The position numbers and the translations under genes are program-made. From positions 1-55,003 of the IMG/VR virus record IMGVR_UViG_3300049489_001135: DNA of 55,003 nt, one strand, 5' to 3'. This DNA comes from a virus. The first letter of the stretch is position 1; each line of letters starts with the position of its first letter. Of this stretch, positions 3,582 to 53,252 are shown piece by piece. Below the pieces are notes generated by a model, which saw nothing but the letters and a program-made list of their open reading frames with translations, was not told where the DNA came from and did no database searches.

Positions 3582-3610
3582 ATTATAATCATTTGGCACG
3601 AATATTGCAA
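3582..3610 (-). promoter_or_regulatory. Minus promoter TTGCAA-N17-TATAAT with GTGCCA spacer
   Basis: On the minus strand a TTGCAA -35 box (3605-3610) is followed by a 17-base spacer and a perfect TATAAT -10 box (3582-3587). The spacer contains CGTGCCAAATGA. Very similar spacers occur at 24605-24632 (CATGCCATAAGA) and 53225-53252 (CGTGCCAACTGA). Transcription would start near 3575 and lead into the basic-protein gene ending its leader at 3370. Read on the plus strand, 3594-3609 is TGGCACG-N4-TTGCA, a sigma-54-like motif. Confidence 0.6.
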
Positions 3611-3810
3611 GACAATTTGCCTACTTTCTGCATATGATTTGCCATCGATTTGCTCATTCCACGGCACGCCACGAACGCAAAATGCAGGAAATAGGCAGGC
3701 AAATGGCCGAAAATCGGCAAAATCGCGCCGAGTTAACAGATTTTGGGTAGTTTGGGGCATTTTTCTGGCATTTTTTGGCAGAATGGGTGGCAGGGGGAAT
3801 GCAAGGTGGC

Positions 3811-3838
3811 TTGACGCTCTTTTTCACGTCTATATATA
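3811..3838 (+). promoter_or_regulatory. Plus early promoter TTGACG-N16-TATATA
   Basis: A TTGACG -35 box (3811-3816) and TATATA -10 box (3833-3838) are separated by 16 bases; an alternative TATAAA at 3835-3840 gives 18. This is a good vegetative-sigma promoter and lies upstream of the first plus-strand gene at 3962, leaving a leader of roughly 115 bases. Confidence 0.6.
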
Positions 3839-3961
3839 AATAAATTTTTGTAGCACATGGATTAAAATGAGACAAAAATATTTTTGCAAATTTGTTTAAG
3901 TTTTTTTTGCATGGTCCGATAAGTATGTATAAGCCAATTAAGGCAGAAACTAGGAGTAAAT

Positions 3962-4078
3962 ATGTTTCAAATATTATGTGGTATGGTTTGTAGTATAGTG
4001 GTAATAGCATTTATGTACTCTCAAGGCGATTTTGCCGAGCGAAAAAATCGCAAAATTTCTAGCCGAGATAATGAGTAA
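3962..4078 (+). CDS. Small membrane peptide, 38 aa
   Basis: The ATG follows an AGGAGTAAAT ribosome site and the gene ends 3 bases before the next start. The product begins MFQILCGMVCSIVVIAFMYS, a single hydrophobic span, and ends in a basic, charged tail (ERKNRKISSRDNE). It shares an 18-base leader (3943-3960) with genes at 21462 and 22975. Function unknown. Confidence 0.5.
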   Translation: MFQILCGMVCSIVVIAFMYSQGDFAERKNRKISSRDNE

Positions 4079-4081
4079 ATT

Positions 4082-4279
4082 ATGGACAATATTAAAAGTA
4101 TGTTCCAAAAATTTATAGCAGATTTAGAGCAAAGACTGAATGCAGACGATGCGCCGTGGGCACGTGGCTATTTTAGAGGGCAGATTGATGCTTATAAAGT
4201 AGCTTTAATGCTTATAGATACAGAAATTTTGCTTAAGTCTGTAGCAGAAAAATCCGAAGAGATTAATAACAAGGAGTAA
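4082..4279 (+). CDS. Small helical protein, 65 aa
   Basis: The start overlaps the spacing expected after the preceding stop and the product begins MDNIKSMFQKFIADLEQRLN. It looks like a helical bundle or coiled coil with an acidic C-terminus. It is the second gene of the plus-strand early operon. No family is recognised. Confidence 0.6.
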   Translation: MDNIKSMFQKFIADLEQRLNADDAPWARGYFRGQIDAYKVALMLIDTEILLKSVAEKSEEINNKE

Positions 4280-4282
4280 ATT

Positions 4283-4519
4283 ATGGTTTATAGAACTAAG
4301 TTTCAAGGTGAGCAGGTAGAAATTGAATATGGTATCGACTCATATGGTGAATTTTACGTTGAGGGAGCATGGTACGTGCCGAGTGAAGTACAATTGGATG
4401 CCTTAGAGCAGCACGAAATTGTAGCTCAATGTAAAGCAGGTATGATTGAAAAACTTGGGTGGCAATTTAGCACACCTGATGCTAAATCGGATGCTTATTA
4501 CAGCAAAAATAGGGAATAG
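4283..4519 (+). CDS. Small protein, 78 aa, unknown function
   Basis: An AAGGAGTAAATT ribosome site precedes the ATG. The product begins MVYRTKFQGEQVEIEYGIDS and appears to be a small alpha/beta protein, with alternating beta-like stretches. It lies in the compact early operon, 3 bases after the previous gene. No family recognised. Confidence 0.6.
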   Translation: MVYRTKFQGEQVEIEYGIDSYGEFYVEGAWYVPSEVQLDALEQHEIVAQCKAGMIEKLGWQFSTPDAKSDAYYSKNRE

Positions 4520-4521
4520 CC

Positions 4522-4674
4522 ATGAAAAAATATTTAGTAGCTAAATTAAGTGCTAAACAGGTGGAAACTATTAAACAACTTAAAGGCTTAATAGTCTCAA
4601 AAGGAGACAGCAATTTGATAGAAGTTTACTTGCCGACTAAACATGTTAAACTATTTGTAGTAAAGGGGAACTAA
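4522..4674 (+). CDS. Small basic protein, 50 aa
   Basis: This short gene fits exactly between its neighbours (2-base and 3-base gaps), which supports it. The product begins MKKYLVAKLSAKQVETIKQL, is lysine-rich and has no cysteine or membrane segment. Function unknown. Confidence 0.5.
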   Translation: MKKYLVAKLSAKQVETIKQLKGLIVSKGDSNLIEVYLPTKHVKLFVVKGN

Positions 4675-4677
4675 ATT

Positions 4678-4935
4678 ATGCGCAAAAGATTTTATTTAGA
4701 AATTCAAACTAGTGGTGATGAAGTTTCGGGCTTTGAAGACAGATATAATTGGTTAAATTATGATACTATTGTAGCCGAGGGGAATACGCTTGAAGAGTGT
4801 TTAGAAGATGCAACAGTATTCACCATGGACCAAGACGGCGGTGAGGGTCCTCAAATTGAGGGCGATGCAGATTGGGTGCAGGAATTAGTAGTAGATGCAT
4901 TTATAACTAAACTTTTAAAACAAAAGGTAGGCTAA
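4678..4935 (+). CDS. Small acidic protein, 85 aa
   Basis: A GGGGAAC ribosome site lies upstream of the ATG. The product starts MRKRFYLEIQTSGDEVSGFE and is strongly acidic in the middle (GNTLEECLEDATVFTMDQDGG). The fold and function are unknown; acidic proteins of this size in early phage operons are often inhibitors or DNA mimics, but nothing specific supports that here. Confidence 0.6.
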   Translation: MRKRFYLEIQTSGDEVSGFEDRYNWLNYDTIVAEGNTLEECLEDATVFTMDQDGGEGPQIEGDADWVQELVVDAFITKLLKQKVG

Positions 4936-4938
4936 TTT

Positions 4939-5421
4939 ATGGGTTACACACATTATTGGTCTTTTGAGGCACCTAAGCGTGGCACTGCGCAGGTAGTTGA
5001 AAAAAATTATCAGCGTGCTATAAAACAGTGCAATAAAATTATCAAGCATTATGCAGCGCAGCACGGTGGGCTATCTGGCTATTCAGCGCACGCCAAAGGC
5101 TACGGTGGATTGCATGTTAATGGTAGCCGTGAAAATGCCCATGAGGATTTTATCGTTCGGGAACATTTTTCTCAAAATGATACAGGCGATTTTTGTAAAA
5201 CCGCTCAAAAGCCTTACGATGTAGTAGTAGTAGCGTGCCTAATAGTATTAAAGCATTATTTGCCAGATAATATTCAGGTAGACAGCGATGGTGAAAAATC
5301 AGACTGGATTAATGGGCTAGAACTGGCACGTAAAGTATTAAAGCTAAAATCATTGCAAATACCTGTATCAATACGAGGCAATGCGTTGAAATTAGTTGGC
5401 TATATTTTTGAGGCGGTTTAA
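4939..5421 (+). CDS. MGYTHYW-family conserved phage protein
   Basis: The N-terminus MGYTHYWSFEAP is the hallmark of a widespread phage protein family of unknown function, and the body has the expected conserved parts: repeated tyrosines, a GYGGLHVNG turn and EDFIVREHF, followed by FCKTAQKPYDVVVVACLIVL. Length (160 aa) is normal for the family. It is cytoplasmic with no catalytic motif that I recognise. It sits just upstream of the DUF932-like and GP88-like genes. Confidence 0.7.
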   Translation: MGYTHYWSFEAPKRGTAQVVEKNYQRAIKQCNKIIKHYAAQHGGLSGYSAHAKGYGGLHVNGSRENAHEDFIVREHFSQNDTGDFCKTAQKPYDVVVVACLIVLKHYLPDNIQVDSDGEKSDWINGLELARKVLKLKSLQIPVSIRGNALKLVGYIFEAV

Positions 5422-9137: not shown

Positions 9138-9371
9138 ATGAATGCAAAAGAAGCAAATAATTTGGCAAAACAAGGTGATTTTGGAAATCAATTACTTAGT
9201 GCTATTAGCGACATTAAAGAAGCTGCTAAAGAAGGTTCGTTTAGGGTGCTATTAAATTCTAATTCATATACAAGTGAGGCACTACGTTTAGAACTAATTA
9301 AATTAGGGTATTTTGTAAGATTTGGTTCAGATAATACTTTGATTGTAAGTTGGGCAGATGTTAAGGATTAA
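9138..9371 (+). CDS. Small protein, 77 aa, unknown function
   Basis: An AAGGAGTAAAT ribosome site precedes the ATG. The product begins MNAKEANNLAKQGDFGNQLL and reads as a helix followed by a beta-rich segment (SYTSEALRLELIKLGYFVRF). It overlaps the end of the opposite-strand M15 peptidase gene by 11 bases. Function unknown. Confidence 0.55.
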   Translation: MNAKEANNLAKQGDFGNQLLSAISDIKEAAKEGSFRVLLNSNSYTSEALRLELIKLGYFVRFGSDNTLIVSWADVKD

Positions 9372-9777
9372 ATTGTCGTTTTCGGCAATTGGGACGTTTA
9401 ATGGTAGGCCGATTGTTTGTGTCTATATGTGACCAATTTTTCGTAGCGGTAGGTTGTTCTTGCCACAAATTAAGCTTTTCAAGTAAGTCTTGTTGAGGGT
9501 CTAAAGAAAGCCACGCATCAATAGCACCATCAGGGTCAGCAAAATCACAAGCTTTGCACACCATATGAGCGGATTTTTTAGCACCATTTGCGGCTGCATT
9601 TTGGGCCGGGCTTCTATACCCGCTAGAAACTTTAAAAGGCTTGCCACCAGCTTTTAGATACGCAGTCTCAAGGTCAAATAACGCTGCATGTAAGGCTTTA
9701 AGATTGGCCTTTTGGTCTGCAGGTAATTCATCATATTTTATACGCCCCATGAGGATAGCGTCTATTGTCAAGGCCAT
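9361..9777 (-). CDS. M15-type peptidase, probable endolysin
   Basis: With the ATG at 9777 the protein is 138 aa and starts MALTIDAILMGR, as is usual for the phage M15A peptidase family. The zinc-site motifs are present: SSGYRSPAQN (51-60), SAHMVCKACDFAD with His71 and Asp78, and WSHID with His117. These enzymes cut peptide crosslinks in peptidoglycan (DD- or LD-carboxypeptidase or endopeptidase activity). No signal peptide is visible, so release would need a holin. It is the only minus-strand gene in a long plus block, implying separate timing. A longer TTG start at 9798 is possible but overlaps the divergent promoter. Confidence 0.75.
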   Translation of the reverse strand: MALTIDAILMGRIKYDELPADQKANLKALHAALFDLETAYLKAGGKPFKVSSGYRSPAQNAAANGAKKSAHMVCKACDFADPDGAIDAWLSLDPQQDLLEKLNLWQEQPTATKNWSHIDTNNRPTIKRPNCRKRQFNP

Positions 9778-9792
9778 GGTATGGCTATTTGT

Positions 9793-9820
9793 TTGCAATT
9801 TTTGTAGCTTATGATATGCT
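9793..9820 (+). promoter_or_regulatory. Plus promoter TTGCAA-N16-TATGCT
   Basis: TTGCAA (9793-9798) and TATGCT (9815-9820) are separated by 16 bases, with a spacer ending in ATGA. It closely resembles the promoter at 53225-53252, also TTGCAA...TGATATGCT. Transcription would start at or near 9827, the A of the next ATG, so the first message may be leaderless. Confidence 0.55.
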
Positions 9821-11891: not shown

Positions 11892-11892
11892 A

Positions 11893-11908
11893 CTACTAAA
11901 TTTAGTAG
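11893..11908. repeat. 16-bp perfect palindrome
   Basis: CTACTAAATTTAGTAG is a perfect palindrome located directly after the stop at 11891. It could be a dimeric repressor operator or a weak terminator; no T-run follows, so terminator function is unlikely. Confidence 0.55.
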
Positions 11909-11922
11909 ACCTTGCTAGCAAA

Positions 11923-11972
11923 CAGTAACTCATTTTAGCCATTTTTGGCAAATTGTACATTATAAGTTACTG
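11923..11972. repeat. 8-bp inverted repeat, 34-bp loop
   Basis: CAGTAACT (11923-11930) is matched by AGTTACTG (11965-11972). The half-sites may be a binding site of a dimeric protein or a long hairpin in the region ahead of the replication genes. Confidence 0.4.
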
Positions 11973-12157
11973 TTTTGGCGGTGTTTTTGCCTATTTTCGG
12001 CAGGAAGTGGGCTTTTTTGTGCCGTTTTCTAGCAGTATTACTGCGTTGGCGGCAAATTTTGAGCACCAAATTCCTGCGTAAGTAATTACCTTAGCAAATT
12101 TTGTACATACTTCTTGCCTGATTCCGCACAAAGTAGCTCGGAAACTTTGTTTAAAGC

Positions 12158-12185
12158 TTGACAAGCAGGCTAACGTATGTATATA
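12158..12185 (+). promoter_or_regulatory. Promoter TTGACA-N16-TATATA
   Basis: The consensus TTGACA (12158-12163) is followed by TATATA (12180-12185) after 16 bases; a TATAGT at 18 bases is an alternative. It is the strongest promoter-like signal in the gene-free region and would start a transcript near 12192. Confidence 0.6.
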
Positions 12186-12191
12186 GTATGA

Positions 12192-12354
12192 TATGGCTCT
12201 GCTAAGGAGAAGGCAGAGGTGTAACTAAGAATAAGACATAAAAAAAACTTATGGCTGGTATAAATCGCTAAGTATCAGTACCCTGGTAAACACCAGCAAA
12301 GTTCACTACTTACAAAGGCGCTAAAAAAAACATAAAAACTTTTCATATGTTTTT
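12192..12354 (+). ncRNA. Candidate small RNA, about 160 nt
   Basis: The transcript from the promoter at 12158-12185 has no convincing gene (only an 11-codon frame). It can fold into a 6-bp hairpin CTCTGC/GCAGAG (12197-12218) whose loop carries AAGGAG, a ribosome-site-like sequence; a CTGGT/ACCAG hairpin with AAAC loop (12283-12296); and an AT-rich 9-bp hairpin AAAAACATA/TATGTTTTT (12326-12354) that resembles a terminator. Position before repeat pairs and the helicase gene suggests an RNA that controls or primes replication. The family is unknown. Confidence 0.45.
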
Positions 12355-12390
12355 CCAGCCAAAAAATACTTGTACCCCCCTGTTTCGCAT

Positions 12391-12424
12391 AGTTTTGCTT
12401 ATACTTCCATAAGTTTTGCTTATA
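12391..12424. repeat. Direct repeat AGTTTTGCTTATA, 21-bp offset
   Basis: Two identical 13-base copies lie at 12391-12403 and 12412-12424, offset by 21 bases, which is two helical turns. They resemble iterons placed on one face of the DNA. Confidence 0.6.
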
Positions 12425-12480
12425 GTAGAGCTTGATTCTTTAAAATATTTAATATTTCACATTCCAATTTTGAATACCAT

Positions 12481-12536
12481 AAATAGGGTAATACCAACCA
12501 CAATTAGGGTAATATAGACCTTTTATTGCCCTATTT
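12481..12536. repeat. Direct repeat TAGGGTAATA and inverted AAATAGGG/CCCTATTT
   Basis: TAGGGTAATA occurs at 12484-12493 and 12505-12514, again offset by 21 bases. In addition AAATAGGG at 12481-12488 is the inverted match of CCCTATTT at 12529-12536. Equal 21-bp spacing with the preceding repeat pair suggests protein binding sites in phase. Confidence 0.55.
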
Positions 12537-12581
12537 AGGCAAAAAGTTATAGCAACTGGGGAAAATAAAAAAAGAATTTGC

Positions 12582-12608
12582 TTGCCTATTTCCTGCCTCT
12601 AATATACT
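12582..12608 (+). promoter_or_regulatory. Probable promoter of the replication operon
   Basis: TTGCCT (12582-12587) and TATACT (12603-12608) are separated by a short 15-base spacer containing CTGCC; an alternative -35 is TTGCTT at 12578. The layout (TTGC, TGCC in the spacer, TATACT) resembles the TTGCAA/GTGCCA promoters. The first gene starts 10 bases after the -10 box, leaving almost no leader. Confidence 0.4.
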
Positions 12609-12618
12609 CTTAAAGCAT

Positions 12619-16156: not shown

Positions 16157-16393
16157 ATGAAATTACACACTTTTTACATGCACAAAGATGCCATGGACAT
16201 TTGTTTATACACAAATAAGATTTCCGACTTGGGCAATAAATTACTGCTACATGTTGCATGGTATAATCTGGGGTATAATGGCTTTCCTTGGCTTATTCAA
16301 GAAGAATATATAACCTTAAAAAATACAGAAAATTGGGTTGACATATCTGATAAATTTATGCATACTAGACTTAAATCAGGATTACCACAATAG
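16157..16393 (+). CDS. Small protein, 78 aa, unknown function
   Basis: I chose the ATG at 16157 over 16145 because GGAG sits at the right distance before it. The product begins MKLHTFYMHKDAMDICLYTN and has aromatic-rich, beta-like segments (GFPWLIQEEYITL). No family is recognised. Confidence 0.55.
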   Translation: MKLHTFYMHKDAMDICLYTNKISDLGNKLLLHVAWYNLGYNGFPWLIQEEYITLKNTENWVDISDKFMHTRLKSGLPQ

Positions 16394-16400
16394 GAGATAT

Positions 16401-16931
16401 ATGAGCGGCAAAAAATTTGACCAAGAAAAACCAGATATGAGTTTACTAAGCCCATTTGCTTTAGAAGAAATTGCTAAAGTAATGACATATGGTAAACAAA
16501 AATATGGTGCCAATAATTGGCGGTCAGGTTTAGCGTTTTCTCGGCTTATTGCTGCTGTATTACGGCATGTAAATGCATACCAAAAAGGTGAAATGGTTGA
16601 CCCTGAGACAGGCCTATCTCATCTTGCTCATGCAAGTTGCGGTCTTTTTATGATGTTAGAATTTGAAGCAACGTGTCCAGCATTAAATGACCTTTATCAT
16701 TGCAATAAAAATGGTATTAGAGAAATGTATGAAGAACAATTAGAAGAAATGGAAAAAGGTATTAAAAATATTATGAATGAATTAAGTGTTCCAAAAATTG
16801 TTGTAGAATCTGAGCAACTAGAACTACCAATAGACCCTTGGCCAAATGTAGAATTTACAGAGCAAGACAGTATGCCTAAATGTCCAGTAGTTGACACTTA
16901 TAAACAATATACACCAAAGATGCAGCCATGA
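16401..16931 (+). CDS. dATP/dGTP pyrophosphohydrolase-like (MazG/MazZ-type)
   Basis: With the ATG at 16401 (AGGAG site) the protein is 176 aa. Its first 100 residues contain KKFDQEKPDMSLLSPFALEE, GKQKYGANNWRSG and LRHVNAYQKGEMVDPETGLS, then HLAHASCGLFMMLE, the pattern of the phage dATP/dGTP diphosphohydrolase N-terminal domain (all-alpha NTP-PPase, related to MazZ). Such enzymes hydrolyse dNTPs to dNMPs. MazZ supplies dGMP for 2-aminoadenine synthesis in Z-genome phages, but no purZ or datZ is present in this window, so a nucleotide-pool role is more likely. The C-terminal 75 residues are unassigned. Confidence 0.7.
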   Translation: MSGKKFDQEKPDMSLLSPFALEEIAKVMTYGKQKYGANNWRSGLAFSRLIAAVLRHVNAYQKGEMVDPETGLSHLAHASCGLFMMLEFEATCPALNDLYHCNKNGIREMYEEQLEEMEKGIKNIMNELSVPKIVVESEQLELPIDPWPNVEFTEQDSMPKCPVVDTYKQYTPKMQP

Positions 16932-21839: not shown

Positions 21840-22156
<317 letters not shown>

Positions 22157-22161
22157 AATAT

Positions 22162-22190
22162 TTGACAAATAGGCTACAACAAGATAGTAT
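22162..22190 (+). promoter_or_regulatory. Promoter TTGACA-N17-TAGTAT
   Basis: TTGACA (22162-22167) and TAGTAT (22185-22190) with a 17-base spacer form a good promoter directly after the GX repeat. It serves the small genes from 22218 onward, isolating them from any transcription trouble in the repeat. Confidence 0.6.
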
Positions 22191-23951: not shown

Positions 23952-24128
23952 ATGAACATTAGACCTAAAAGAAAACGCGGCTATTATAGGGCATTAAAAA
24001 GACAAGAGCCTTGGGCTTTAAGAGAAAAAATGATGAAAGATTGTATGAATGCCTTAAACAAAACACTGTATACTGATGCAATAAGATACACTATGACAGG
24101 TATTTCTGAAACGATTCAATCCAAATAG
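23952..24128 (+). CDS. Small basic protein, 58 aa
   Basis: The ATG at 23952 follows TAAAGGATTT. The product begins MNIRPKRKRGYYRALKRQEP and is strongly basic, as in nucleic-acid-binding peptides. A longer frame from 23811 would run through the structured RNA and is less likely. The 3' end overlaps the opposite-strand RusA-like gene by 38 bases. Confidence 0.45.
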   Translation: MNIRPKRKRGYYRALKRQEPWALREKMMKDCMNALNKTLYTDAIRYTMTGISETIQSK

Positions 24129-24561
24129 TTACACAAATTTCGTATTTTTCTTCGCTGCTACATCGTTTTGCACTATTTAAGCTTATAAGGTACTTGTCAT
24201 CAGCATTTAAATTGGGGCAACCATATGGAAAACTTTGCACATGATACTTAGGCAAAAATATCAAATCTGTCAAAATTTTTTCTACGTTTGTTATGTCAAA
24301 CATTTTGCTACTAATTAGTCCCCTTTGGTTGCAAAATATCTGCCTTGGATATTTACATACTATCTGCATCCGATACACATGCTTTTCGGCATCAAAATTT
24401 GCACGCAAATCAGCTAAAGCCGTCTGAGCGTCTGGCTTAGATAACTCAAATAGCGCAGAAGATTCCCACTCACGATAGGCAGCGGTTTTGCGACTATGGT
24501 CTTTATAATACATTGCATTTACTGAGAAAGGTTTAAGGGCCAGTTTAAAATTTCGTCTCAA
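24091..24561 (-). CDS. rusA: RusA-like Holliday-junction resolvase
   Basis: The 156-aa protein begins KLALKPFSVNAMYYKDHSRK and contains FDITNVEKILTDLI (Asp89, Asn92, Lys95, Asp99), the DxxNxxKxxxD core of RusA, with a further Asp pair NADDKYL near 118. RusA dimers cut four-way junctions in recombining or branched phage DNA. The start is TTG at 24561. The gene lies at the end of the late minus operon next to a promoter of the TTGCAA type. The similarity to RusA is by motif; the overall sequence is divergent. Confidence 0.7.
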   Translation of the reverse strand: MRRNFKLALKPFSVNAMYYKDHSRKTAAYREWESSALFELSKPDAQTALADLRANFDAEKHVYRMQIVCKYPRQIFCNQRGLISSKMFDITNVEKILTDLIFLPKYHVQSFPYGCPNLNADDKYLISLNSAKRCSSEEKYEICVTIWIESFQKYLS

Positions 24562-24604: not shown

Positions 24605-24632
24605 AGTATATCTTATGGCATGGTTATTGCAA
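24605..24632 (-). promoter_or_regulatory. Minus promoter TTGCAA-N16-TATACT with ATGCCA spacer
   Basis: On the minus strand TTGCAA (24627-24632) and TATACT (24605-24610) are 16 bases apart, with CATGCCATAAGA in the spacer. It lies about 45 bases upstream of the RusA-like start. The spacer matches those at 3582-3610 and 53225-53252. Read on the plus strand, TGGCATGGTTATTGCA is a sigma-54-like motif, but plus transcription would run antisense into the late genes. Confidence 0.55.
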
Positions 24633-37119: not shown

Positions 37120-37467
37120 CTATACCTCTTTTTGGCTTAAATCTTTAGTTAAATAAATCATATCTTTATCACAACTTTCTAATTGAAATCCGCCTGCCAA
37201 AATTGCTTTTAGGCTTATGGTAGAACCGTTTGCGGGCGGAGAGCAACTTGTAACCAGTTTTAATTTCCCCGCTGCTATAGCAACTTGCTCAATATGCTTT
37301 AACATGCTCCAAGCTTGCCCAGTCATTCTTTTTTCAGGCACCACATACATATCTTGCAAGTAAATACTTTCTGGAAAAATTTTCAATACTACAAATCCGT
37401 GAGGAAACTCTACTAACTCAGCATTTTCTCGCTCTTTTAAGTAATCTTTATACATGGTTAGCTCCAA
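37120..37467 (-). CDS. GNAT-like acetyltransferase, 115 aa
   Basis: The product has the strand-turn-helix core of GNAT folds: FVVLKIFPESIYLQDMYVVP then KRMTGQAWSMLKHIEQVAIA, where the basic turn would bind acetyl-CoA. Similar short GNAT proteins are found in the structural gene cluster of some podoviruses. A substrate is not evident. It lies between the tail-hub gene and the internal protein genes. Confidence 0.5.
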   Translation of the reverse strand: MELTMYKDYLKERENAELVEFPHGFVVLKIFPESIYLQDMYVVPEKRMTGQAWSMLKHIEQVAIAAGKLKLVTSCSPPANGSTISLKAILAGGFQLESCDKDMIYLTKDLSQKEV

Positions 37468-37487
37468 TATGCAATAAATATGCCATA

Positions 37488-40400
37488 TTATTCTAACCCA
37501 TATTTAGCAGCATTGTCAATTTTAAACAAGCCTGTTTTGCCACCGACTAATAGCGTCATGGCACTTAGCGACAATCCTTCACCTGCTGCAGATTGTTCAT
37601 CCTCAACAAGTATGCGTAAGGCTTGGCATTTTTGAAATTTAAAGTCGAATCGGGCTTGATATGGCTTTCCAGCGCCGCCGTAAGGCACGGTTGCAGGTAG
37701 TCCATAGGGGCTATAGCCACCATAAGGCGTTGCATCAATTATGCGGTCAGTTGGCACTATAGACTTAGTTTGAGCATAAGCTTCAATGTAATTAAATGCT
37801 GCAGAAATTTTTAAAGTATGAGCAGACTTATAATCACCAAGTATCATAAGCTGATATACTCGCTGCGCTCCTTGAAGAGCAGACATATTTAGCCAGCCTG
37901 TTTCTAACTGCAACTTAATTGGAGAACCATTGTCACCATAGGACGTAGGATTTTCTTTGAATAATTCCCTAGACGTTCGTAAATAATAATACTGATTATC
38001 TACAACTTCAGCGTCCATAGCACGATGATTATCAAAAGTAGCCCATAATTTAAGAAAATAATTATATACTAAACAATCGCCATCAGAAGTTGTAAATCTA
38101 ATTTGATTAAAATCAGAAATTACTTTAGCACTGGTAATTGTCAGTCCATTGTAAGCTTCTACAGGTGCTCCAATATATTCTAGGCTTAAATCTCTGCCTA
38201 GCAAGTAAATGCCCTTAGTAGACTTAAAAAATATTCCAATATTTGTAAATACAACAGACTTAGGGTCTGTACAACCAACATCACTACTGACAAGTTCAGG
38301 GTCAGTAAATAAATTTTGAGCACCAGTATTTGTTGGCCCCGCACCGCTAAAAAATTGAATACCTTTTTCTTGGAATATAATAATTTTATCGTCCATGGCA
38401 GATAGGGCTGTAATTAGACCGGGCTCTGGGTCAATATTTACTACTAAATCATCATTAAATTCTACAGGAAAGCCTTCCAGCCTAATTTTACTATATTGCA
38501 CCAAAGACGCTTCTTTATTTGCAACAATTAAACGTCCAGACGTTGTGTGTACAGTCATAACTGTTGTAGCTGGTGCTGCAGTGTTGTCTAGCACACCGCC
38601 ATTTGTATATAAAGGCTGTCTTGAAATAAGCTCTGTATCAGATATAGTGTCTGTAACTGTGATGTAATCTACAGATTTATTATTAAAATTTGGAGCATTT
38701 ATATTTGTAACAATATAATAAATATTGCCGTTATCTTCTGTGCGATAAAGTTCAATGATTACATTTTCCTTAGAAGTAAGCCTTAAAGTTGGCACGTCCA
38801 CTTTATAAGAAGTTACAAACGCGCCATTTTCTAAACTAGTGGCTAAACCATCGCCTTCGCCACCGTCTGCTAAATTTTGAGCGCCGCCACCTGTAGCACG
38901 TAAATCAGGACTTAAAGTACTTGCATCTGTTACAGTAACACTTTTGCCAGTAACTGCTCCATATGTTAATAATTGAGCAAGCTCTGCAGTAGTTAAATTT
39001 ACAGGTATTGCACCATTATTTACACCATTATTTGGAGTAATAGTTAAGGTAATGTTTGTAGCAGTGCCAGTATATACAGCTAAAATTGTATTAGTTGGAT
39101 TTGCTGCTGCAGCAGCGACCTGTAAAGTAAACTTTACGCCATTTTTTGTAGTACCAGGAGTACGACTGTAAACCACTACAGGCACAGTAGTTGCCAATGA
39201 ACCACTTGGTGCAACACCTGAACCGGATGCTAATGTAGCAGAAAAAGACCCAGCAACTATATTGCTCGCAGAACCGCCAGTAGCAGTCCAATCTCTAAGC
39301 AAAAAGTTTGTATCAGTTAATGTAATTGATTTGCCAATAACTGTGCCAGAATTTATTAATTCAGCCAATTCTGCAGTAGTTAAAGTCACTGGCACAGCAC
39401 TATTATTTGTACCATCATTTGGCGTAATGGTAAGTACTGCCGCAGATAGTGTTCCAGACATAGCAGCTAAAATTGTATTAGTAGGATTAGCAGCCGGTGC
39501 ATTTATTGTAACAGTAAGCGAGTATCCGTTTGCATATGCTCCTGCATAAGAGTAGCCAACAGAAATACTTGAATCAGTGGCTAATGTACCAGTTGGTAAA
39601 GACGAACTGGCAAATGCAACTGTTAAGTCAGTAGTTGTAGCACTTCTATGCTCCTGGCCAACATTATCAGTCCAGCGATAAAGCGCCTTGTAGCCATAAT
39701 TCCCCGGTGCTAAAGACCCTTGCACAGAAGTGTCCTGTGTAATAGTTTTTAAAGTCTCAGGAAATACATTAAATCCATGCTCAACAACGCTATCACCGTC
39801 ATACATTTGTAGCAATCCGCCACTTATATGCAGATTTTGTGCAAAGAAAGCCGTCTCATAGGGAGATTCAAAATCAAAATCTAATGTAGTAGCAGTGACA
39901 CCTAGCAGTCCATAGAATGTACCATTTTCGCTAATAAGCTTATTTTTATATTGCGAAGTAATTATAACTTTATTTTCATCATAAGTCATAGTTTGAGGCA
40001 ACACACCAGTAGTTGTATGCACACCACCAACACCCTGCGACCATTTTGCCACCACAGTTGCATCAGAATCTGCCACAAAATACGTTGATTGCAAAGTGCT
40101 TACAAATATTAGCGGCACGTAGACAGTCTCATTATGTGCAAATATTTTAGAGCTAAGGCCGACAGAGCGCATAAATACGCCATTATTAGTAGCGCTTCCT
40201 GCTACAGTAATTGTAGAATTTTTTATATAATAATTAGTAGTTTCTGCAGCCGATACTTGATAATATAGTGAATAAACACCAGAAGCCGTTTGAATGCTAC
40301 TTAATGCAGTCACACCTGCAACCGACTCAACTAAAGTATTGCCTAAAATAGCGCCAGTTAAATTAAGAGGAAAAATACAATAAGAAACATTTGAGCCATT

Positions 40401-41237
40401 AGAGTAGCTAATAACCGTACGAAATGAGCTATCAATATAGGCATCTAAAGCATGAGAAGCGCTGGCACCAGTTACACCAACAATGCTGGAAGCTACACCA
40501 GCAGAGTCTATGCCAAAAACTTGTAGATTAGCCCCAACTTGAGTGCTATTATAAGCAATAATAATTTTACCTGGACCGCTGATTATATCCAATTTTGGTG
40601 CCGCAGTGTTTACGTTACTTGCAAGTAAAGTGGCAGAACTAAGCGCAGTAGGGGTTAAAATATTAAAACGTTTATAGTACAAATTAGCACCAGAAACATA
40701 AACAATATATACAAAATTTTGTATAGAAGCTACTTGAGCAATTTCTGCACCAGTTGCTACAACATCATCACTTACTAGTAAACTTTTAGTGGCAATATCT
40801 TGCACAGAATATCTAATATCATTTGAAATAGTATTATGATAAGTATGTACGTTTAAATTTTCAACAGTTAATAGGTCTAAGTTATCGTGGTTGTACGAGT
40901 TATTTAGCACTGGAGTTGTAAAAGGATATACATTGTATATATCGCCTTTTTGTTCAAATTTCTGTAAACTATCTGAAAATGAAAATAAACTACTTGGATT
41001 AAAAACTATAAGCTCATTATTATACTTTGAAAGTGCTTTAGCATCTTCTAATCGCTCACCAGTAGTTAAATATAAAAGTAGTGAGTCATAGCCGTTGCGC
41101 TTTCGGGCACTTAGCACAGTCTCAAATACAACGTTAACAGCGCGACGAAGTTTGCCCTCAATCTGTTGCTTAACATCTACTTTAGTATCAATACCTTGGC
41201 CAAAAGATATTGGTATAATTTGTTTATTTAAAGCCAA
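37488..41237 (-). CDS. Long tail-hub/stabilisation protein, 1249 aa
   Basis: The N-terminus (PISFGQGIDTKVDVKQQIEG and LRRAVNVVFETVLSARKRNG) and the region LVQYSKIRLEGFPVEFNDDL to GPTNTGAQNLF resemble the tail beta-propeller proteins (gp10-like stabilisation or tail tubular B) of podoviruses. Between about residues 546 and 800 lie two tandem copies of a domain with NPTNTILA and TLTTAELAELI-like elements, an insertion not usual in the family. It should form the tail nozzle/hub below the adaptor. It is more than 500 aa longer than typical members. Confidence 0.7.
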   Translation of the reverse strand: MALNKQIIPISFGQGIDTKVDVKQQIEGKLRRAVNVVFETVLSARKRNGYDSLLLYLTTGERLEDAKALSKYNNELIVFNPSSLFSFSDSLQKFEQKGDIYNVYPFTTPVLNNSYNHDNLDLLTVENLNVHTYHNTISNDIRYSVQDIATKSLLVSDDVVATGAEIAQVASIQNFVYIVYVSGANLYYKRFNILTPTALSSATLLASNVNTAAPKLDIISGPGKIIIAYNSTQVGANLQVFGIDSAGVASSIVGVTGASASHALDAYIDSSFRTVISYSNGSNVSYCIFPLNLTGAILGNTLVESVAGVTALSSIQTASGVYSLYYQVSAAETTNYYIKNSTITVAGSATNNGVFMRSVGLSSKIFAHNETVYVPLIFVSTLQSTYFVADSDATVVAKWSQGVGGVHTTTGVLPQTMTYDENKVIITSQYKNKLISENGTFYGLLGVTATTLDFDFESPYETAFFAQNLHISGGLLQMYDGDSVVEHGFNVFPETLKTITQDTSVQGSLAPGNYGYKALYRWTDNVGQEHRSATTTDLTVAFASSSLPTGTLATDSSISVGYSYAGAYANGYSLTVTINAPAANPTNTILAAMSGTLSAAVLTITPNDGTNNSAVPVTLTTAELAELINSGTVIGKSITLTDTNFLLRDWTATGGSASNIVAGSFSATLASGSGVAPSGSLATTVPVVVYSRTPGTTKNGVKFTLQVAAAAANPTNTILAVYTGTATNITLTITPNNGVNNGAIPVNLTTAELAQLLTYGAVTGKSVTVTDASTLSPDLRATGGGAQNLADGGEGDGLATSLENGAFVTSYKVDVPTLRLTSKENVIIELYRTEDNGNIYYIVTNINAPNFNNKSVDYITVTDTISDTELISRQPLYTNGGVLDNTAAPATTVMTVHTTSGRLIVANKEASLVQYSKIRLEGFPVEFNDDLVVNIDPEPGLITALSAMDDKIIIFQEKGIQFFSGAGPTNTGAQNLFTDPELVSSDVGCTDPKSVVFTNIGIFFKSTKGIYLLGRDLSLEYIGAPVEAYNGLTITSAKVISDFNQIRFTTSDGDCLVYNYFLKLWATFDNHRAMDAEVVDNQYYYLRTSRELFKENPTSYGDNGSPIKLQLETGWLNMSALQGAQRVYQLMILGDYKSAHTLKISAAFNYIEAYAQTKSIVPTDRIIDATPYGGYSPYGLPATVPYGGAGKPYQARFDFKFQKCQALRILVEDEQSAAGEGLSLSAMTLLVGGKTGLFKIDNAAKYGLE

Positions 41238-43678: not shown

Positions 43679-43927
43679 TACAGATTTATACCCAAATTTT
43701 ACATATACGCGACAATCAAATCCAAAAATTCCATAGTTTATAGGAGCATTTAAAAAGTCTTTTAATTGCAATTTACGGCCTAGTTGCTGTTCTATACAAG
43801 TAATACATATACATTTTTTACGCTCCTGTTCAGTAGTAAGCTTATTTCATAAATTGAATTTTAACATATATGGCTCATTAGAACCATTACATCTATAACA
43901 ATTACTTCCGTACCAAGATTTTTTCAT
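43658..43927 (-). pseudogene. Zinc-finger gene with in-frame TGA
   Basis: From an ATG at 43927 the frame encodes SNCYRCNGSNEPYM and, after an in-frame TGA at 43847-43849 (codon 27), continues without a stop for 62 codons: TEQERKKCICITCIEQQLGR and KDFLNAPINYGIF. The two CxxC pairs on either side of the TGA form a zinc-finger unit, so a single protein was probably coded. It is most likely a pseudogene, although TGA read-through is possible. It overlaps the GIY-YIG stop by 4 bases. Confidence 0.55.
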
Positions 43928-44580
43928 TTTTGCTCCATGATATTATCTATTACTATAAAAACATAGCCCGCAGTATGTGTACGCTTGCCATTTACAACAT
44001 CTCGAACCGATTCTCTTCTTAGGTTAAAATGCTTTGCAGCTCTAGATATAGAATTAAACTCTAGTCCACTTTTCAGTTCTTTAATCTTTTTTGAATTAGT
44101 AGCCTGTAGTGATTTCCTAATTTTATCTTCTTCTGTATATACTGGCCTAGATGGTTTTTCTAGTTTAGCTAATCGCATAAGATTAAGCGTTTCCTCTGAA
44201 AAACAGCCCTTTCTGCCTTTATTCCAAGGTTCGATATGAGTCGTACTGCGCATAATTTTCATGCGTTCGCCAGATATTTTTCTTTGTTCTGCAGTATTTG
44301 TACCATATCCTGGTTTTTTATTTAGCCCAATATCGTATGCTTTTAAAGTTTTAATATAATACATTTCAGCATCTCTAGATTCCTGATAAGTAGCAACTTC
44401 AACCAAAATCTCCCAAATCCAATCTTCCATTTTAGTAGTTTGCAAAAATGTTTGAAAAGCCTTTTGCTTTTTATCAGTAAGGCCCCAATGTTGACCAATT
44501 CTAATTTCTAATTTTTGACTAGTCTGTCCAATATAGAACTTTCCAGATGGTTTATGAGTAGCTTTATAAACAATAAACAT
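43924..44580 (-). CDS. GIY-YIG homing-type endonuclease
   Basis: The 218-aa protein has VYKATHKPSGKFYIGQT (GIY-YIG core), a conserved Arg and a Glu in DAEMYYIKTL, then a NUMOD-type segment (WNKGRKGCFSEETLNLMRLA) and a C-terminal HTH-like NUMOD1 part (SISRAAKHFNLRRESVRDVV). These are the modules of free-standing phage homing endonucleases, which cut DNA of related phages to spread. It has its own promoter and lies directly after the capsid gene terminator, so it is a self-contained mobile cassette. Confidence 0.85.
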   Translation of the reverse strand: MFIVYKATHKPSGKFYIGQTSQKLEIRIGQHWGLTDKKQKAFQTFLQTTKMEDWIWEILVEVATYQESRDAEMYYIKTLKAYDIGLNKKPGYGTNTAEQRKISGERMKIMRSTTHIEPWNKGRKGCFSEETLNLMRLAKLEKPSRPVYTEEDKIRKSLQATNSKKIKELKSGLEFNSISRAAKHFNLRRESVRDVVNGKRTHTAGYVFIVIDNIMEQK

Positions 44581-49172: not shown

Positions 49173-50621
49173 TTAAAATTCATCATCTGTTACGCCAATA
49201 TCGTCAAAATCAGCTACATCGGTAAATTCTGACATGCCAGATTTTCGTTGTTCAAACTTTTCCATTTCTTTTTGCTCTAACATGTCCATGTACTTATCAG
49301 TATTTATTGCTATTTTTTCTGCAGGAGATTGCTTAAAGTAGTGGCGACATTCACGCCAAGCGTATAGCACGGAATCTCCAACGTCGGTATGGTAAACGTC
49401 CGAAATTTTTGGCCGGGCTGGGTCATCGTAGTTCCATTGCACGAGATTACAATCTTCAGCAAAGCGACTGTTTGGCATTGCTTTAAATTTACCGCTGCGT
49501 AAATCATCGTTTAGCATGGCAATAAACTCAAATTTTCTAGCCTTGTCTGCGGCATCAATTGGCAACTGATGCCGGATACGTATCTCTTCTTGAATTTTTT
49601 TACCCAGTGCTCCAGCATCCATTACCATTTTTACTGGCTTATACTTGCTCTGTAATGCCTTAATTTGTGTAACTAAACCAGTAATGTCCTGCTTAGTGGT
49701 AATCAATTCTTCTACCAAGTAAACTTCGCCGGTAAAGTGGCTGTAACCTAGCACGGCTATGGCATCTGCGTCCTTATAGCCAATATCTATGCCAAATATG
49801 TAGGTAAGATTTTCTGGTATGCTAAAGGTAGTGTTTAGCACCGCGTCAAATTTAAAAACAAGACTGTCTAAATCTTTAATCCATTGGCCAAAATATTCTC
49901 GCTGAATACTTGCATCATTTGTAGTCAAACCACGGCGTGCTGCTAGTTCCTTGATAATATCCAGCGGTTCTTTGCCAGATTTAAGCTTAATATGCGGATT
50001 TTGTTGCATGGTCCAGTGATGATGGCTCCACTCAGGATTGTGTGATGCATCATAGAAATATCCGGCAGGAATTGGGCCAGGTGTGCCAATAAGTATTAGC
50101 TCACCATAGTAATCGGTTAAAGCAGGCTCAATAATGTCCTCAACTAGGTCTTTAATATAAGCACGGAAGGCTTGGGATTCATCTATATACACCTTGCGAA
50201 ATGAAAGTCCACGAAATTTTTCGGCTTCGCCTGCATCTTTAGCACCAGATACGTAGATAATGTTACCATTTGGCATGTGCAGTGATAAATCTGAGTTATC
50301 AGGATGCCCTTGCAAAGCATATTCTTTATTTATCTTTAAAATTTCTCGCCAAATAATACGTTTAGCATTTATTCGACTAAGTGTGATATAGGCTACATCA
50401 CCTTTTTTAGTCATGGCCGTGTTCATTAAATCTGCAGCACATGCTAGTGTTTTTCCGCTTCTGCGGGAGCAAACTGCAGTTTTAAATCTAGCTGGGTCAT
50501 TAATGAATGCAATTTGCTTGTCAAAACAGAAATCTTCAATAGTAAAGCTACGAGCCAAGGACTTAGCCTTAGCTCGCTTTGCAATTTCCTGCTTTAAAAT
50601 ATCAGACCTAATGCGACTCAA
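49173..50621 (-). CDS. terL: Terminase large subunit
   Basis: The 482-aa protein has Walker A CSRRSGKTLA (Lys57), Walker B KVYIDES (Asp147, Glu148), motif C GELILIGTPGP, and an RNase H-like nuclease with GIDIGYKDADAIAVLG (about 273-288), VMDAGALG and a C-terminal HTDVGDSVLYAW. It packages DNA into the head and cuts concatemers. The start is TTG at 50621 behind CGGGGAACAT. The nuclease acidic residues all appear present. Confidence 0.9.
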   Translation of the reverse strand: MSRIRSDILKQEIAKRAKAKSLARSFTIEDFCFDKQIAFINDPARFKTAVCSRRSGKTLACAADLMNTAMTKKGDVAYITLSRINAKRIIWREILKINKEYALQGHPDNSDLSLHMPNGNIIYVSGAKDAGEAEKFRGLSFRKVYIDESQAFRAYIKDLVEDIIEPALTDYYGELILIGTPGPIPAGYFYDASHNPEWSHHHWTMQQNPHIKLKSGKEPLDIIKELAARRGLTTNDASIQREYFGQWIKDLDSLVFKFDAVLNTTFSIPENLTYIFGIDIGYKDADAIAVLGYSHFTGEVYLVEELITTKQDITGLVTQIKALQSKYKPVKMVMDAGALGKKIQEEIRIRHQLPIDAADKARKFEFIAMLNDDLRSGKFKAMPNSRFAEDCNLVQWNYDDPARPKISDVYHTDVGDSVLYAWRECRHYFKQSPAEKIAINTDKYMDMLEQKEMEKFEQRKSGMSEFTDVADFDDIGVTDDEF

Positions 50622-50932: not shown

Positions 50933-51679
50933 TTACTCCGATTTCTTGCCGATAGAAGGCAGTTTATATTGAACTCTTGCATCACTAACACCAACTGGAG
51001 CCCGAAATAGTGGGCAGCCAGAAAACTTAAATGTAATAGCACCAAACATTGATTGCATGGATACGGTATTCATTTTCATAATAAGCTCTTGAGAGCAAAC
51101 AATGTCTACAATGTTATCGGCAGCCCGAAAGCGAATAGAATCTTCTGCGTCCAACCATAATTCTTTGCTTACCAAACCTTTATAGTCAGATAATTGCATT
51201 TGCATACGCTTAGCATTTGCCACTTCAAGGCTAAGTACTCGGCGTTTTACATAATACAGTGTTGTCTCAAGAGAACCTACTTCTACAGTGCCTTCAAGGC
51301 CAGCATACGCTTGGTGAAACATTAAAGTGCCGTTTTCTGTAACAAGACGCCTGCCTGGTAATTGTTCTACTATTGCAGAAGCCATGCTGGCTGCAAAAAT
51401 GCTGACAGTATGTAAATTAGGAATTAATTTAGCAAATTGAATAAACATAAAGCCTGCTTCAATAGAGCCGCCCGGAGAATCTAGCACCAAATACAGTGGA
51501 TAGTTTTTTGTGCCGCGTTTTAGCACCAGTTTAGCAAGTTCAAGCTGCGCAGTTATAGCACTACGCCCAGAAACTTCGCCACGATACACAACAGTATTAT
51601 TGCTGTTTAATTGTACTTGTTCTGTAGCAGCAAAACTACTCAGCGGCAACAGCAGGGCTAGTGTTAGTAACATTTTCAT
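50933..51679 (-). CDS. Periplasmic ClpP-like serine protease
   Basis: The protein begins with a signal peptide (MKMLLTLALLLPLSSFAATE, cleavage near 17-18) and continues as a ClpP-fold with a complete triad: VSIFAASMAS (Ser98), TLMFHQAYAG (His122) and SKELWLDAED (Asp177). DSPGGSIEAGFMFIQ is the usual ClpP strand. It is predicted to act in the periplasm, where ClpP normally is not found. It lies directly after a second, cytoplasmic ClpP-fold gene. It may process an envelope or virion protein; target unknown. Confidence 0.65.
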   Translation of the reverse strand: MKMLLTLALLLPLSSFAATEQVQLNSNNTVVYRGEVSGRSAITAQLELAKLVLKRGTKNYPLYLVLDSPGGSIEAGFMFIQFAKLIPNLHTVSIFAASMASAIVEQLPGRRLVTENGTLMFHQAYAGLEGTVEVGSLETTLYYVKRRVLSLEVANAKRMQMQLSDYKGLVSKELWLDAEDSIRFRAADNIVDIVCSQELIMKMNTVSMQSMFGAITFKFSGCPLFRAPVGVSDARVQYKLPSIGKKSE

Positions 51680-51848
51680 TTGTATTCCTATTCTGGCCGT
51701 TAAGCCGGTTAATTTCTTCTACTAAAACTTTTTTCTCAATCAATAGGCCGCCTATGGCCCGAATTAAATCATTTTTGCTCATACTTTTTAAGTTCTTTTT
51801 AACTTCTGAAAAGTATTGTTGCATTTGTTTTGCATCTTGTTCGGTCAC
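51636..51848 (-). CDS. Small coiled-coil protein, 70 aa
   Basis: The protein begins MTEQDAKQMQQYFSEVKKNL and is predicted coiled coil (KKNLKSMSKNDLIRAIGGLL, IEKKVLVEEINRL). It lies between the two ClpP-fold genes and overlaps the second by 44 bases, so it could be an adaptor or partner of one of them; that is inferred from position. Confidence 0.45.
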   Translation of the reverse strand: MTEQDAKQMQQYFSEVKKNLKSMSKNDLIRAIGGLLIEKKVLVEEINRLNGQNRNTNENVTNTSPAVAAE

Positions 51849-51856
51849 GTAGTCTC

Positions 51857-52333
51857 CTATATTAGTTCGGTTGCTAAATTAAGTTTAAGTGCTTCTTCAG
51901 GCGATAAGTAAGTTTCGGCAGCATGTAATTTAAGCCAGGTTTTAGCATCGGTTCCAGTGTATTCTTGTAATAGTTCGCACCAAAACTCTTCGCTTTTTTC
52001 CATGTCTTTTGCAAATTTTCTTATTTCAGTACTTTTTCCTTTAGTTTTATCAGAACTTTCATGAACGAGCATAACCGCCGCTTTAGAAAGTCTGCGCACA
52101 TTGCCAGCAGCAAATACAATAACAGCCGTAGAATGTACAGCACCAAAACCATACGTATGAACATCCCTTCCAGATGCCTTAATAAAGCCTGCAATTGCGC
52201 GACCAACATGCTCATCTCCACCGTCCGAGTTTATAATAACATTAATAGGACTTTCAGTTTGTTTAGTAAATTTTTTTACAAAATATTGAAACATTGCATC
52301 GTCAATGTTACCAGAAATGATAATATTACTCAT
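51857..52333 (-). CDS. Cytoplasmic ClpP-fold protein
   Basis: With the ATG at 52333 (AAAGG site, overlap with the GNAT-like gene by 8 bases) the protein is 158 aa. It contains VIINSDGGDEHVGRAIAGFI, GAVHSTAVIVFAAG (Ser68) and MLVHESSD (His91); the third residue of the triad appears to be Glu instead of Asp in AAETYLSPEEA. ClpP-fold proteins near phage terminase or portal genes are often prohead proteases. No signal peptide is visible, so it differs in location from its neighbour. Confidence 0.6.
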   Translation of the reverse strand: MSNIIISGNIDDAMFQYFVKKFTKQTESPINVIINSDGGDEHVGRAIAGFIKASGRDVHTYGFGAVHSTAVIVFAAGNVRRLSKAAVMLVHESSDKTKGKSTEIRKFAKDMEKSEEFWCELLQEYTGTDAKTWLKLHAAETYLSPEEALKLNLATELI

Positions 52334-52805
52334 CTTGAACCTTTGGCTTGCTAAGTTCATACGCATAATAGCTTAGATATGGGTTATATACCATTTTGTA
52401 CTTTTTCTCTAGTGGCTCACTGGTGAATGTTCTGTGCGTGTAAAATAATGGTGTTTCTTTGGTAATACTTAATGCTTCAAGTAGCATTTTGGCGACACCA
52501 AATTTTCGGTAAATTTCTTTTACATATATAAAGTGAATTACTGGCACGTCTTCTACAGATTCGTGAGCAATGTAGCCATAAATTTGAGAAATGTCTTGGG
52601 CGTTGCAGGCAATAATAATTTCGGCCTGCTTACAAAGACCCTCTAGCACTTTGTGATGTTGTGCAAAATAAACTGGGTTATCACAGCCGCGAGTATTTTG
52701 ACTATGTCTATAGCAGCGAAGCCAAGAATTAAATACAAAGGGAACGTCTACTTCAGTGGCGGGTCGAAGTCTTACTTGATTCTTCAGGTCCGTTTTTTCG
52801 CTCAT
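52326..52805 (-). CDS. GNAT-like acetyltransferase, 159 aa
   Basis: The protein has the GNAT pattern: RLRPATEVDVPFVFNSWLRC, EVDVPFVFN, IACNAQDISQIYGYIAHESV and VKEIYRKFGVAKMLLEAL, where the basic FGVAKML loop would bind acetyl-CoA. It begins behind AAAAAGGAGCAAAG. Phage GNAT proteins can modify host or virion components; the substrate is not known. It is the second GNAT in the late region. Confidence 0.6.
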   Translation of the reverse strand: MSEKTDLKNQVRLRPATEVDVPFVFNSWLRCYRHSQNTRGCDNPVYFAQHHKVLEGLCKQAEIIIACNAQDISQIYGYIAHESVEDVPVIHFIYVKEIYRKFGVAKMLLEALSITKETPLFYTHRTFTSEPLEKKYKMVYNPYLSYYAYELSKPKVQDE

Positions 52806-53022
52806 CTTTGCTCCTTTTTGCGTCCCAGTATGTGCTGATTTCTACAACTAGTACAGCACCTTCAAATTCTGGGTCTGGTTTTACAATCACGTTATATGGC
52901 AAACTAAGTCTTTTGGCAATGCTTCGATTTTCTACTACAGTTTCTACTAGCATATAGTCTAGTAAGGCATGTACTTCGTGGGCACTGTCTAAATTAATTG
53001 TTGCCTTTTTCGGCTTGGACAT
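52753..53022 (-). CDS. Small protein, 89 aa
   Basis: The product begins MSKPKKATINLDSAHEVHAL and contains a beta-rich centre (YNVIVKPDPEFEGAVLVVEI) and a charged tail. It overlaps the preceding gene and the GNAT-like gene. Function unknown. Confidence 0.5.
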   Translation of the reverse strand: MSKPKKATINLDSAHEVHALLDYMLVETVVENRSIAKRLSLPYNVIVKPDPEFEGAVLVVEISTYWDAKRSKDERKNGPEESSKTSTRH

Positions 53023-53206
53023 TTGCAGCCTTTAGTTGGGTTTCCATTTTCTTGATTTCCGGTGCTATAGAAGCCAGCGCTTTAATTTGCGCTTCAATTT
53101 CTCTAACTTGAGAATCAATATCATTTTTTTGAGTAGTTAAAGCACCAAGTTGTACACATAAATTGGTATATTTTTGGTCAATAAGCTTTTGTGCGTCCAT
53201 TTTCAC
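52994..53206 (-). CDS. Coiled-coil protein, 70 aa
   Basis: An AAAGGAGTGAAA ribosome site precedes the ATG, about 12 bases after the predicted transcription start of the promoter at 53225-53252. The product is a single coiled coil (begins MKMDAQKLIDQKYTNLCVQL). It may be an adaptor or chaperone protein at the start of this late block. Confidence 0.55.
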   Translation of the reverse strand: MKMDAQKLIDQKYTNLCVQLGALTTQKNDIDSQVREIEAQIKALASIAPEIKKMETQLKAANVQAEKGNN

Positions 53207-53224
53207 TCCTTTAAGCCTTTTAGT

Positions 53225-53252
53225 AGCATATCAGTTGGCACGAAAATTGCAA
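53225..53252 (-). promoter_or_regulatory. Minus late promoter TTGCAA-N16-TATGCT with GTGCCA spacer
   Basis: On the minus strand TTGCAA (53247-53252) and TATGCT (53225-53230) are 16 bases apart with CGTGCCAACTGA in the spacer. It is directly upstream of the gene starting at 53206 and would head the structural operon. The reverse strand reads TGGCACGAAAATTGCA, an excellent sigma-54-like motif, but that orientation would transcribe antisense to the gene at 53295-53525. Confidence 0.6.

Follow-up and report, generated by a model that had tools for sequence, protein, structure and literature searches.

Iteron or operator arrays are known from phages and plasmids. The RNA polymerase that carries sigma-54 (RpoN) recognises -24/-12 elements with GG-N10-GC spacing, for which a wider form of the consensus is TGGCAYRN4TTGCW, and it binds without opening the DNA until an activator acts. 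One published form of the consensus is TGGCAC-N5-7-TTGCT (PMC12316311; this and the other papers are cited here from parts of their text). In E. coli, sigma-54 represses sigma-70 promoters that overlap its own sites, GC at -12 being repressive (PMC4551910), and RpoN binding may be silent or suppressive (PMC7657599). Sites for host regulators are also found in phage promoters, namely those of CtrA, with 'lytic deferment', in phages of Alphaproteobacteria and those of Spo0A in phi29 (PMC9437464), and PAK_P1-like phages carry repeated 41-nt sigma-70 promoters (PMC4309531). Here we describe a motif in the viral record IMGVR_UViG_3300049489_001135, analysed over its whole length of 55,003 nt (positions 1 to 55,003; hereafter the window). 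From its sequence, the motif is a predicted site with the specificity of host sigma-54 that is laid out as clusters and head-to-head pairs and not as promoters. This is our preferred reading, which includes use of the sites to soak up sigma-54, and we hold it tentatively, at a little under an even chance.

With sigma-54 promoters the phage sites share the TGGCAYR-N4-TTGCW consensus and the GG-N10-GC spacing. They differ from them in being clustered and head-to-head, in that most copies face no gene within promoter distance, and in that the pairs are almost absent from a collection of bacterial and archaeal genomes. As in the repressive sites of E. coli (PMC4551910), sites in the window cover the -35 element and spacer of sigma-70-type promoters, whereas here they lie in a phage, with a large array, and repression is predicted. 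The CtrA and Spo0A cases resemble ours in that recognition sites of a host regulator are concentrated in the genomes of unrelated phages, but here the sites are of sigma-factor type, form dyads or arrays and lie mostly away from promoters (PMC9437464). Iteron and operator arrays have their likeness in tandem 25-26-bp copies in the relatives G002 and G016 and in phased half-sites; in contrast to them, one specificity is retained here across phages without shared nearby genes. The 41-nt promoters of PAK_P1-like phages (PMC4309531) are likewise regulatory elements present in repeated form, and they belong to the phage genus of the cultured carriers described below, with a different motif.

Phages are known to have collected the binding sites of few host regulators. 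Should host sigma-54 prove to be the binder, the sites would represent a widespread phage strategy against an alternative sigma factor. Should the binder be a phage protein, one sigma-54-identical specificity across phages without shared nearby genes would be equally surprising. The presence of the paired site in many unrelated phages and in hardly any bacterial genomes hints at an unrecognised capture or exploitation of a host factor.

Motif copies and a phased array in the window

Exact copies of the 17-mer TTGCAA-N4-CRTGCCA were found at 3594-3610, 24616-24632 and 53236-53252, every one on the minus strand. The record holds these three and no copy of the pattern read backwards. With up to three mismatches allowed, 76 matches were obtained; 100 shuffles gave 43.8 +/- 6.9 and in no case attained 76, although many of the matches at three mismatches are chance. 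TATAAT, TATACT and TATGCT boxes of the -10 type are placed 16 or 17 bases after TTGCAA in the exact copies, giving sigma-70-type promoters, with hexamers spaced 16-18 bp ahead of a gene, at 3582-3610 (TTGCAA-N17-TATAAT, inside the array described below), 24605-24632 (TTGCAA-N16-TATACT) and 53225-53252 (TTGCAA-N16-TATGCT), all minus. All three are directed into the minus-strand gene block. The latter two lie 44 and 19 bp ahead of genes 24091-24561 and 52994-53206, the second of which has the ribosome site AAAGGAG, and no plus-strand gene lies beyond them in the opposite direction. The absence of a gene in the opposite direction, like the gene directions given below for copies in relatives, rests on a crude gene finder. 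The first-pass annotation, made from the letters of the window, had reported the three copies with their -10 boxes and had stated that at 24605 and 53225 only the TTGCAA-first orientation faces a gene. Both observations hold, and an equal frequency of the motif in shuffled sequence, which that annotation had raised as a possible objection, was not found. It had also listed a looser copy at 9793-9820 (plus). The sequence TTGCAA-N16-TATGCT is present there, but it is only promoter-like and not a member of the motif, because CRTGCCA is absent and the stretch is not among the matches with up to three mismatches. The 28-bp promoter form had 0 matches in a scan of viral_contigs.

On the opposite strand the motif reads as a sigma-54 -24/-12 site, as the same annotation had noticed. 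A scan of the window with TGGCAYRN4TTGCW gave seven exact sites, four of them in the array and the others at 24616, 53236 and 37470, and the reversed control gave none. The consensus with GG-N10-GC spacing is also seen in the profile of the relatives, which was built from matches to the motif itself. Exact sites at 3594-3609, 24616-24631 and 53236-53251 (all plus) underlie the -35 hexamer and spacer of the three promoters; another array site is at 3459-3474 (minus). The site at 37470-37485 (minus) lies at the interval that separates gene 37488-41237 from gene 37120-37467, and its sigma-54 direction faces a gene start. This was also the case for copies at 46 and 57200 of G007, 7923 of L036 and 42220 of G003, whereas at 24616, 53236 and most copies the site does not read towards a gene start. 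The solitary sites at 24616 and 53236 were therefore rejected as sigma-54 promoters of window genes, there being no gene in that direction. For the same reason the proposed switch between two opposed productive promoters is not supported, and it is hard to see both sites of a head-to-head pair acting as ordinary promoters. What had been one option in the annotation, the resemblance to sigma-54, has become the main signal, while its promoter family fits a minority of copies.

Around the copy at 3594, the annotated genes leave a gap of about 590 bp (3371-3961), at the divergence of early and late genes and adjoining the first late gene. Within it, positions 3427-3803 form a non-coding array of the half-site KGCM (TGCA, TGCC, GGCA, GGCC) spaced about 11 bp apart. 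Between 3400 and 3820 there are 28 half-sites compared to 8.4 expected from the window average. A spacing of exactly 11 bp is shared by 12 pairs, where 500 dinucleotide shuffles gave 0.5, and one of 10-12 bp by 19 pairs (shuffles: mean 1.5, maximum 6). The phase is maintained near 22, 33, 44 and 54 bp, in chains of 7, 3, 5, 4 and 5 half-sites. Sites of the sigma-54 type (TGGCAYR-N4-TTGCA) are present in both orientations and form two head-to-head pairs of 38 bp, at 3491-3528 and 3535-3572, each with an offset of 22 and with two and one mismatches in all, respectively. The array, both pairs and a promoter-like relative of the motif (TTGCAAGAAGTAGGCAACTAAAGTATGCT) at 2629-2657 (minus), in the gap ahead of gene 2031-2576, had been overlooked in the first-pass annotation.

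On the late strand, the array is followed first by gene 2660-3370 (minus), which encodes a 236-aa protein with a predicted helix-turn-helix (HTH) core at residues ~108-185. A run of C followed by an A/T run (like CACCCCCCACCAAAAAATTTT) occurs near the arrays of several array-bearing phages (L028 1053-1135, L031 1325, L038 475 and L047 392). In the window it lies at 3324-3356 (minus), within the 5' end of the HTH gene; this copy was spotted by eye and was not listed by the regular expression.

The paired site in related and unrelated phages

Relatives of the window phage were collected by large terminase (15) and by terminase alignment (362, of which 80 loci were retained, some repeated). The query was the large terminase subunit at 49173-50621 (minus; phrog_2, E 1.1e-39). 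Among cultured phages no close relative was found: a DNA search with window positions 1-25000 gave no match, and identities were about 25-27% for terminase, among the matches listed, and at most 38.5% for DNA polymerase. Searches for relatives by the HTH protein alone or DNA polymerase alone were unproductive.

The sigma-54-type site is retained in related phages. G010 has four tandem-or-paired copies and more, G002 has three tandem 25-bp copies, G016 has a tandem 26-bp series, and further clusters were found in G015, L036 and L038. Ten head-to-head pairs with offsets of 18-22 bp occur in four of 12 records (window 2, G015 2, G016 3, G010 3), compared to 1 in 60 shuffled sequences. No cluster was seen in G006, G014, G018, G019 and G009, and G003 has weak copies only. 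Promoter-like copies are present at L032 2845, at G010 3123, where the genes on either side are homologous to the neighbours of the window's 53236 copy, and, in weaker form, at L037 7025 just past the terminase gene. Together with the window's three, all of these read towards late genes. Thirty clustered copies were assessed, and most had poor -10 boxes. Because of these poor boxes, and because some solitary copies face genes in the sigma-54 direction, the motif is a predicted binding site that occasionally overlies a promoter, rather than a promoter element.

Among the complete genomes, no gene family distinguishes those with an array from those without; two families occur in all four array genomes, yet also in one array-less genome. 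In the terminase tree, arrays are spread over several branches with at least three label changes, the label 'no array' being unsure because many rows are fragments. A TGAGAC motif near arrays was considered and found unconvincing. Two side observations were made in relatives. L022 (relative G003) has a long array of 15-bp repeats at 3298-3922, possibly a low-complexity gene. In the array-less G006, upstream of 7351 (L025), the HTH gene is preceded by an ordinary promoter, CTTGACA...GCGCCAAA...TATAAT, which resembles the window's promoter but has a standard -35 element.

To look beyond the family, we scanned for the dyad TGGCAYRN4TTGCA-N2..7-TGCAAN4YRTGCCA. It was found in at least 120 stretches of viral_contigs and in three of genome_contigs, a bacterial and archaeal collection of 257 billion bases. 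Of these three, the first is on a 4.3-kb MAG (metagenome-assembled genome) contig beside another, near-perfect pair, the second forms a near-perfect palindrome and the third stands isolated. The divergent arrangement, of equal composition, gave 20 matches and the reversed control gave none, although the latter is lenient because it is CpG-rich. The dyads total 169, of which 141 are distinct among the matches listed. By shared nearby open reading frames (ORFs; E < 1e-10), computed on loci of 1.4-14 kb, the 123 listed loci (120 viral and 3 bacterial) fell into 31 groups; the largest has 78 loci and three groups are bacterial. Among the matches listed, groups of a single locus range in GC content from 0.32 to 0.62 and contigs reach 480 kb. 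The paired form thus recurs in phages without shared nearby genes. Given 31 groups without a shared nearby gene and this range of GC content, a binder common to many hosts is favoured. Such a binder would be the simplest account, and host sigma-54 is the known protein with that specificity.

In 38 chosen carrier records there were 272 exact sites, at least 76 of them by construction, compared to one in the reversed control, and within the listed rows of these carriers most sites of one record lie close together. The base after TTGC at the sites in the 123 dyad loci was A in 593, T in 117, G in 11 and C in 7. Since the loci were chosen for exact dyads, only the unselected position and sites are independent; once 338 sites whose final A was imposed by construction are excluded, A or T was present in 372 of 390. 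The motif has a defined sequence, is clustered and paired, and recurs across phages. For the L172 group, no cultured relative was found by megablast, and no paper describing such sites in phages was among the top-ranked matches of text searches of the open literature.

A cultured carrier is Pseudomonas phage vB_PaeM_C2-10_Ab02 (Ab02), of the genus Pakpunavirus. When up to one mismatch is allowed, Ab02 has ten non-redundant sites. Six fall within the 1,165-bp terminal repeat, a further one is at 3395, and the gap ahead of ORF143 holds the other three (80808-80993). The pair, at 80.96 kb, is distant from both ends and from the terminase, and it is retained in all five Pakpunavirus sequences (Ab02, PaoP5, 20Sep418, HJ01 and PAK_P1). 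Its six variable positions all fall at Y, R or N of the sigma-54 consensus; by our own arithmetic, with the two gap positions counted as free, six random positions among 34 would all be free with a chance of about 0.2%. P. aeruginosa, the host of the genus, has RpoN (PMC5626770). 'RpoN' does not occur within the passages covered of the genus papers PMC3652863 and PMC5377924; in the parts covered of PMC4309531, neither 'RpoN' nor 'palindrom' occurs and the single 'sigma' is sigma-70. During PaP1 infection, chemotaxis, two-component and nitrogen-metabolism pathways are slightly repressed (PMC5377924, in part), which would fit sigma-54 titration and proves nothing. The sigma-54 reading is testable in cultured P. 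aeruginosa phages (PAK_P1, PaoP5, Ab02 and kin).

Proposed role and competing explanations

If sigma-54 is the binder, the host's sigma-54 RNA polymerase would bind the sites and form its usual closed, inactive complex. The sites may then soak up scarce sigma-54 holoenzyme, which is the least certain step. In the window, where three late promoters of the sigma-70 type have a copy over their -35 and spacer, a bound complex could keep these shut, and it is possible for a sigma-70 promoter to be blocked in this way. Phage replication might later exceed the supply of sigma-54 and free the late promoters, acting as a copy-number timer: with sites over three late promoters and an array besides, one genome could be silent and many copies escape. 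At dyads elsewhere, sigma-70-type promoters were found in 9 of 149 testable cases, compared to between 4 and 20 of 123-151 at each of 14 other offsets. Occlusion of sigma-70 promoters as a general rule was therefore rejected, and since promoter blocking is thereby out as the general role in other phages, titration of sigma-54 would be the plainest guess. We regard it as doubtful that unrelated phages share a gene-independent device of locked sigma-54 pairs or arrays that sequesters host polymerase and so reprograms the host or times late genes.

Several observations weigh against host sigma-54. Head-to-head pairs fit a symmetric protein better than RNA polymerase, because RNA polymerase could not fill both halves of a pair, and the dyad symmetry as a whole counts in the same direction. 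The phasing in the window extends past the sigma-54 pairs, and sigma-54 gives no account of it. Several complete relatives (G006, G014, G018 and G019) have no array. The lack of sigma-70-type promoter enrichment at the dyads of other phages is a further difficulty: as the overlap is not general, the late-gene timer would apply at best to the window lineage. The flanks behind the grouping of loci are short, and the number of groups drops to 20 at E < 1e-4. Finally, a terminase scan of genome_contigs, made in search of the window's host, yielded no relative.

The main alternative is a phage DNA-binding protein acting as a symmetric dimer or tetramer, for which the arrays would be operators that regulate, in the window, the late promoters. 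It would explain the head-to-head dyads and the phasing of about 11 bp, and the HTH protein is a local candidate. Its gene adjoins the array in the window, G010, G007, G002 and G016, and in G015 the array lies inside the HTH gene's open frame, the start of which is uncertain; the conserved surroundings of G010 3123 and the window's 53236 copy point the same way. The gene product, a candidate DNA-binding protein or small terminase subunit, is retained in relatives, and its matches to HTH families are weak. A structure predicted from the single sequence had a mean predicted local distance difference test (pLDDT) score of 42, and a model from 17 rows reached a pLDDT of about 90 over the core, where alone it is confident. 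Fold searches with this model gave no clear match, only weak rows such as the DNA-binding domains of Sap1 and TEAD4 (Z about 4). However, the HTH family also occurs in array-less relatives, and it was found in none of the 38 other dyad-bearing records (a search run without a positive control, so that the empty answer carries little weight), in no ORF close to a dyad and not in Ab02, which weakens the HTH protein as the common binder. A single specificity across phages without shared nearby genes would also be unusual for a phage regulator, and the match to sigma-54 would be a coincidence. We consider a phage protein rather unlikely.

Alternatively, the array might be an origin of replication or a pac/cos-type packaging site, recognised by a phage initiator or the small terminase subunit. 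Its position next to the first late gene, where early and late genes diverge, the G015 array within the HTH gene's open frame and the C-run plus A/T-run element near the arrays of several relatives are consistent with this, as are the six Ab02 sites in the terminal repeat and the 57 of 123 listed dyad loci that fall, at a median of 1.4 kb, in the family to which the window's large terminase belongs. These 57 loci are largely from one group of related phages, however, and the Ab02 pair lies far from ends and terminase. The solitary window copies at 24616 and 53236 are placed in late promoters, and no terminase or initiator was found in common to the carrier groups. We consider an origin or packaging site improbable.

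A promoter family with a conserved spacer, served by a phage activator or an altered sigma factor, or a pair of opposed productive promoters, appears less probable still. The three copies in the window whose -10 boxes lie at 16-17 bp and the promoter-like copies in L032, G010 and, more weakly, L037 speak for such a family, but most clustered copies lack a good -10 box and dyads elsewhere show no promoter enrichment. The RpoN DNA-binding domain was absent from 16 family records, and in 38 other carriers none was over the cut-off, with one match below it. The Sigma54_activat domain was likewise absent from the 16, and it was matched in 4 of the 38 at E <= 0.01, two of these matches being over the cut-off and partial, with a model that also matches all 14 control genomes. 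The activator that a sigma-54 promoter requires might equally be supplied by the host. Chance or composition can be dismissed: short AT-rich motifs do recur, and many three-mismatch matches are chance, but the backwards 17-mer, the shuffles of half-sites and pairs, and the reversed controls of scan, carriers and window rule it out.

Gene content and other features of the window

Genes on the plus strand, among them those for primase and DNA polymerase, form one block of the window (~4-24 kb); a second block, on the minus strand, includes the terminase, portal and head protein genes. An endolysin/peptidase-like gene (9361-9777, minus; phrog_894) lies within the plus-strand early block, and a homing-endonuclease-like gene (43924-44580, minus; phrog_314) lies within the head-gene block. 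Neighbouring protease-like proteins are encoded at 50933-51679 and 51857-52366 (both minus); the first is ClpP-like, as judged by eye only, and the second matches head maturation proteases. Between early genes, 727 bp at 11892-12618 hold no listed gene and gave no Rfam match. An open frame of 109 aa at 21843-22172 (plus) consists almost entirely of A, P and T repeats. The protein encoded at 16338-16931 (plus) has an N-terminal dATP/dGTP diphosphohydrolase domain (PF18909, E 2.2e-30) and homologues in relatives, and is of interest for modified-base metabolism.

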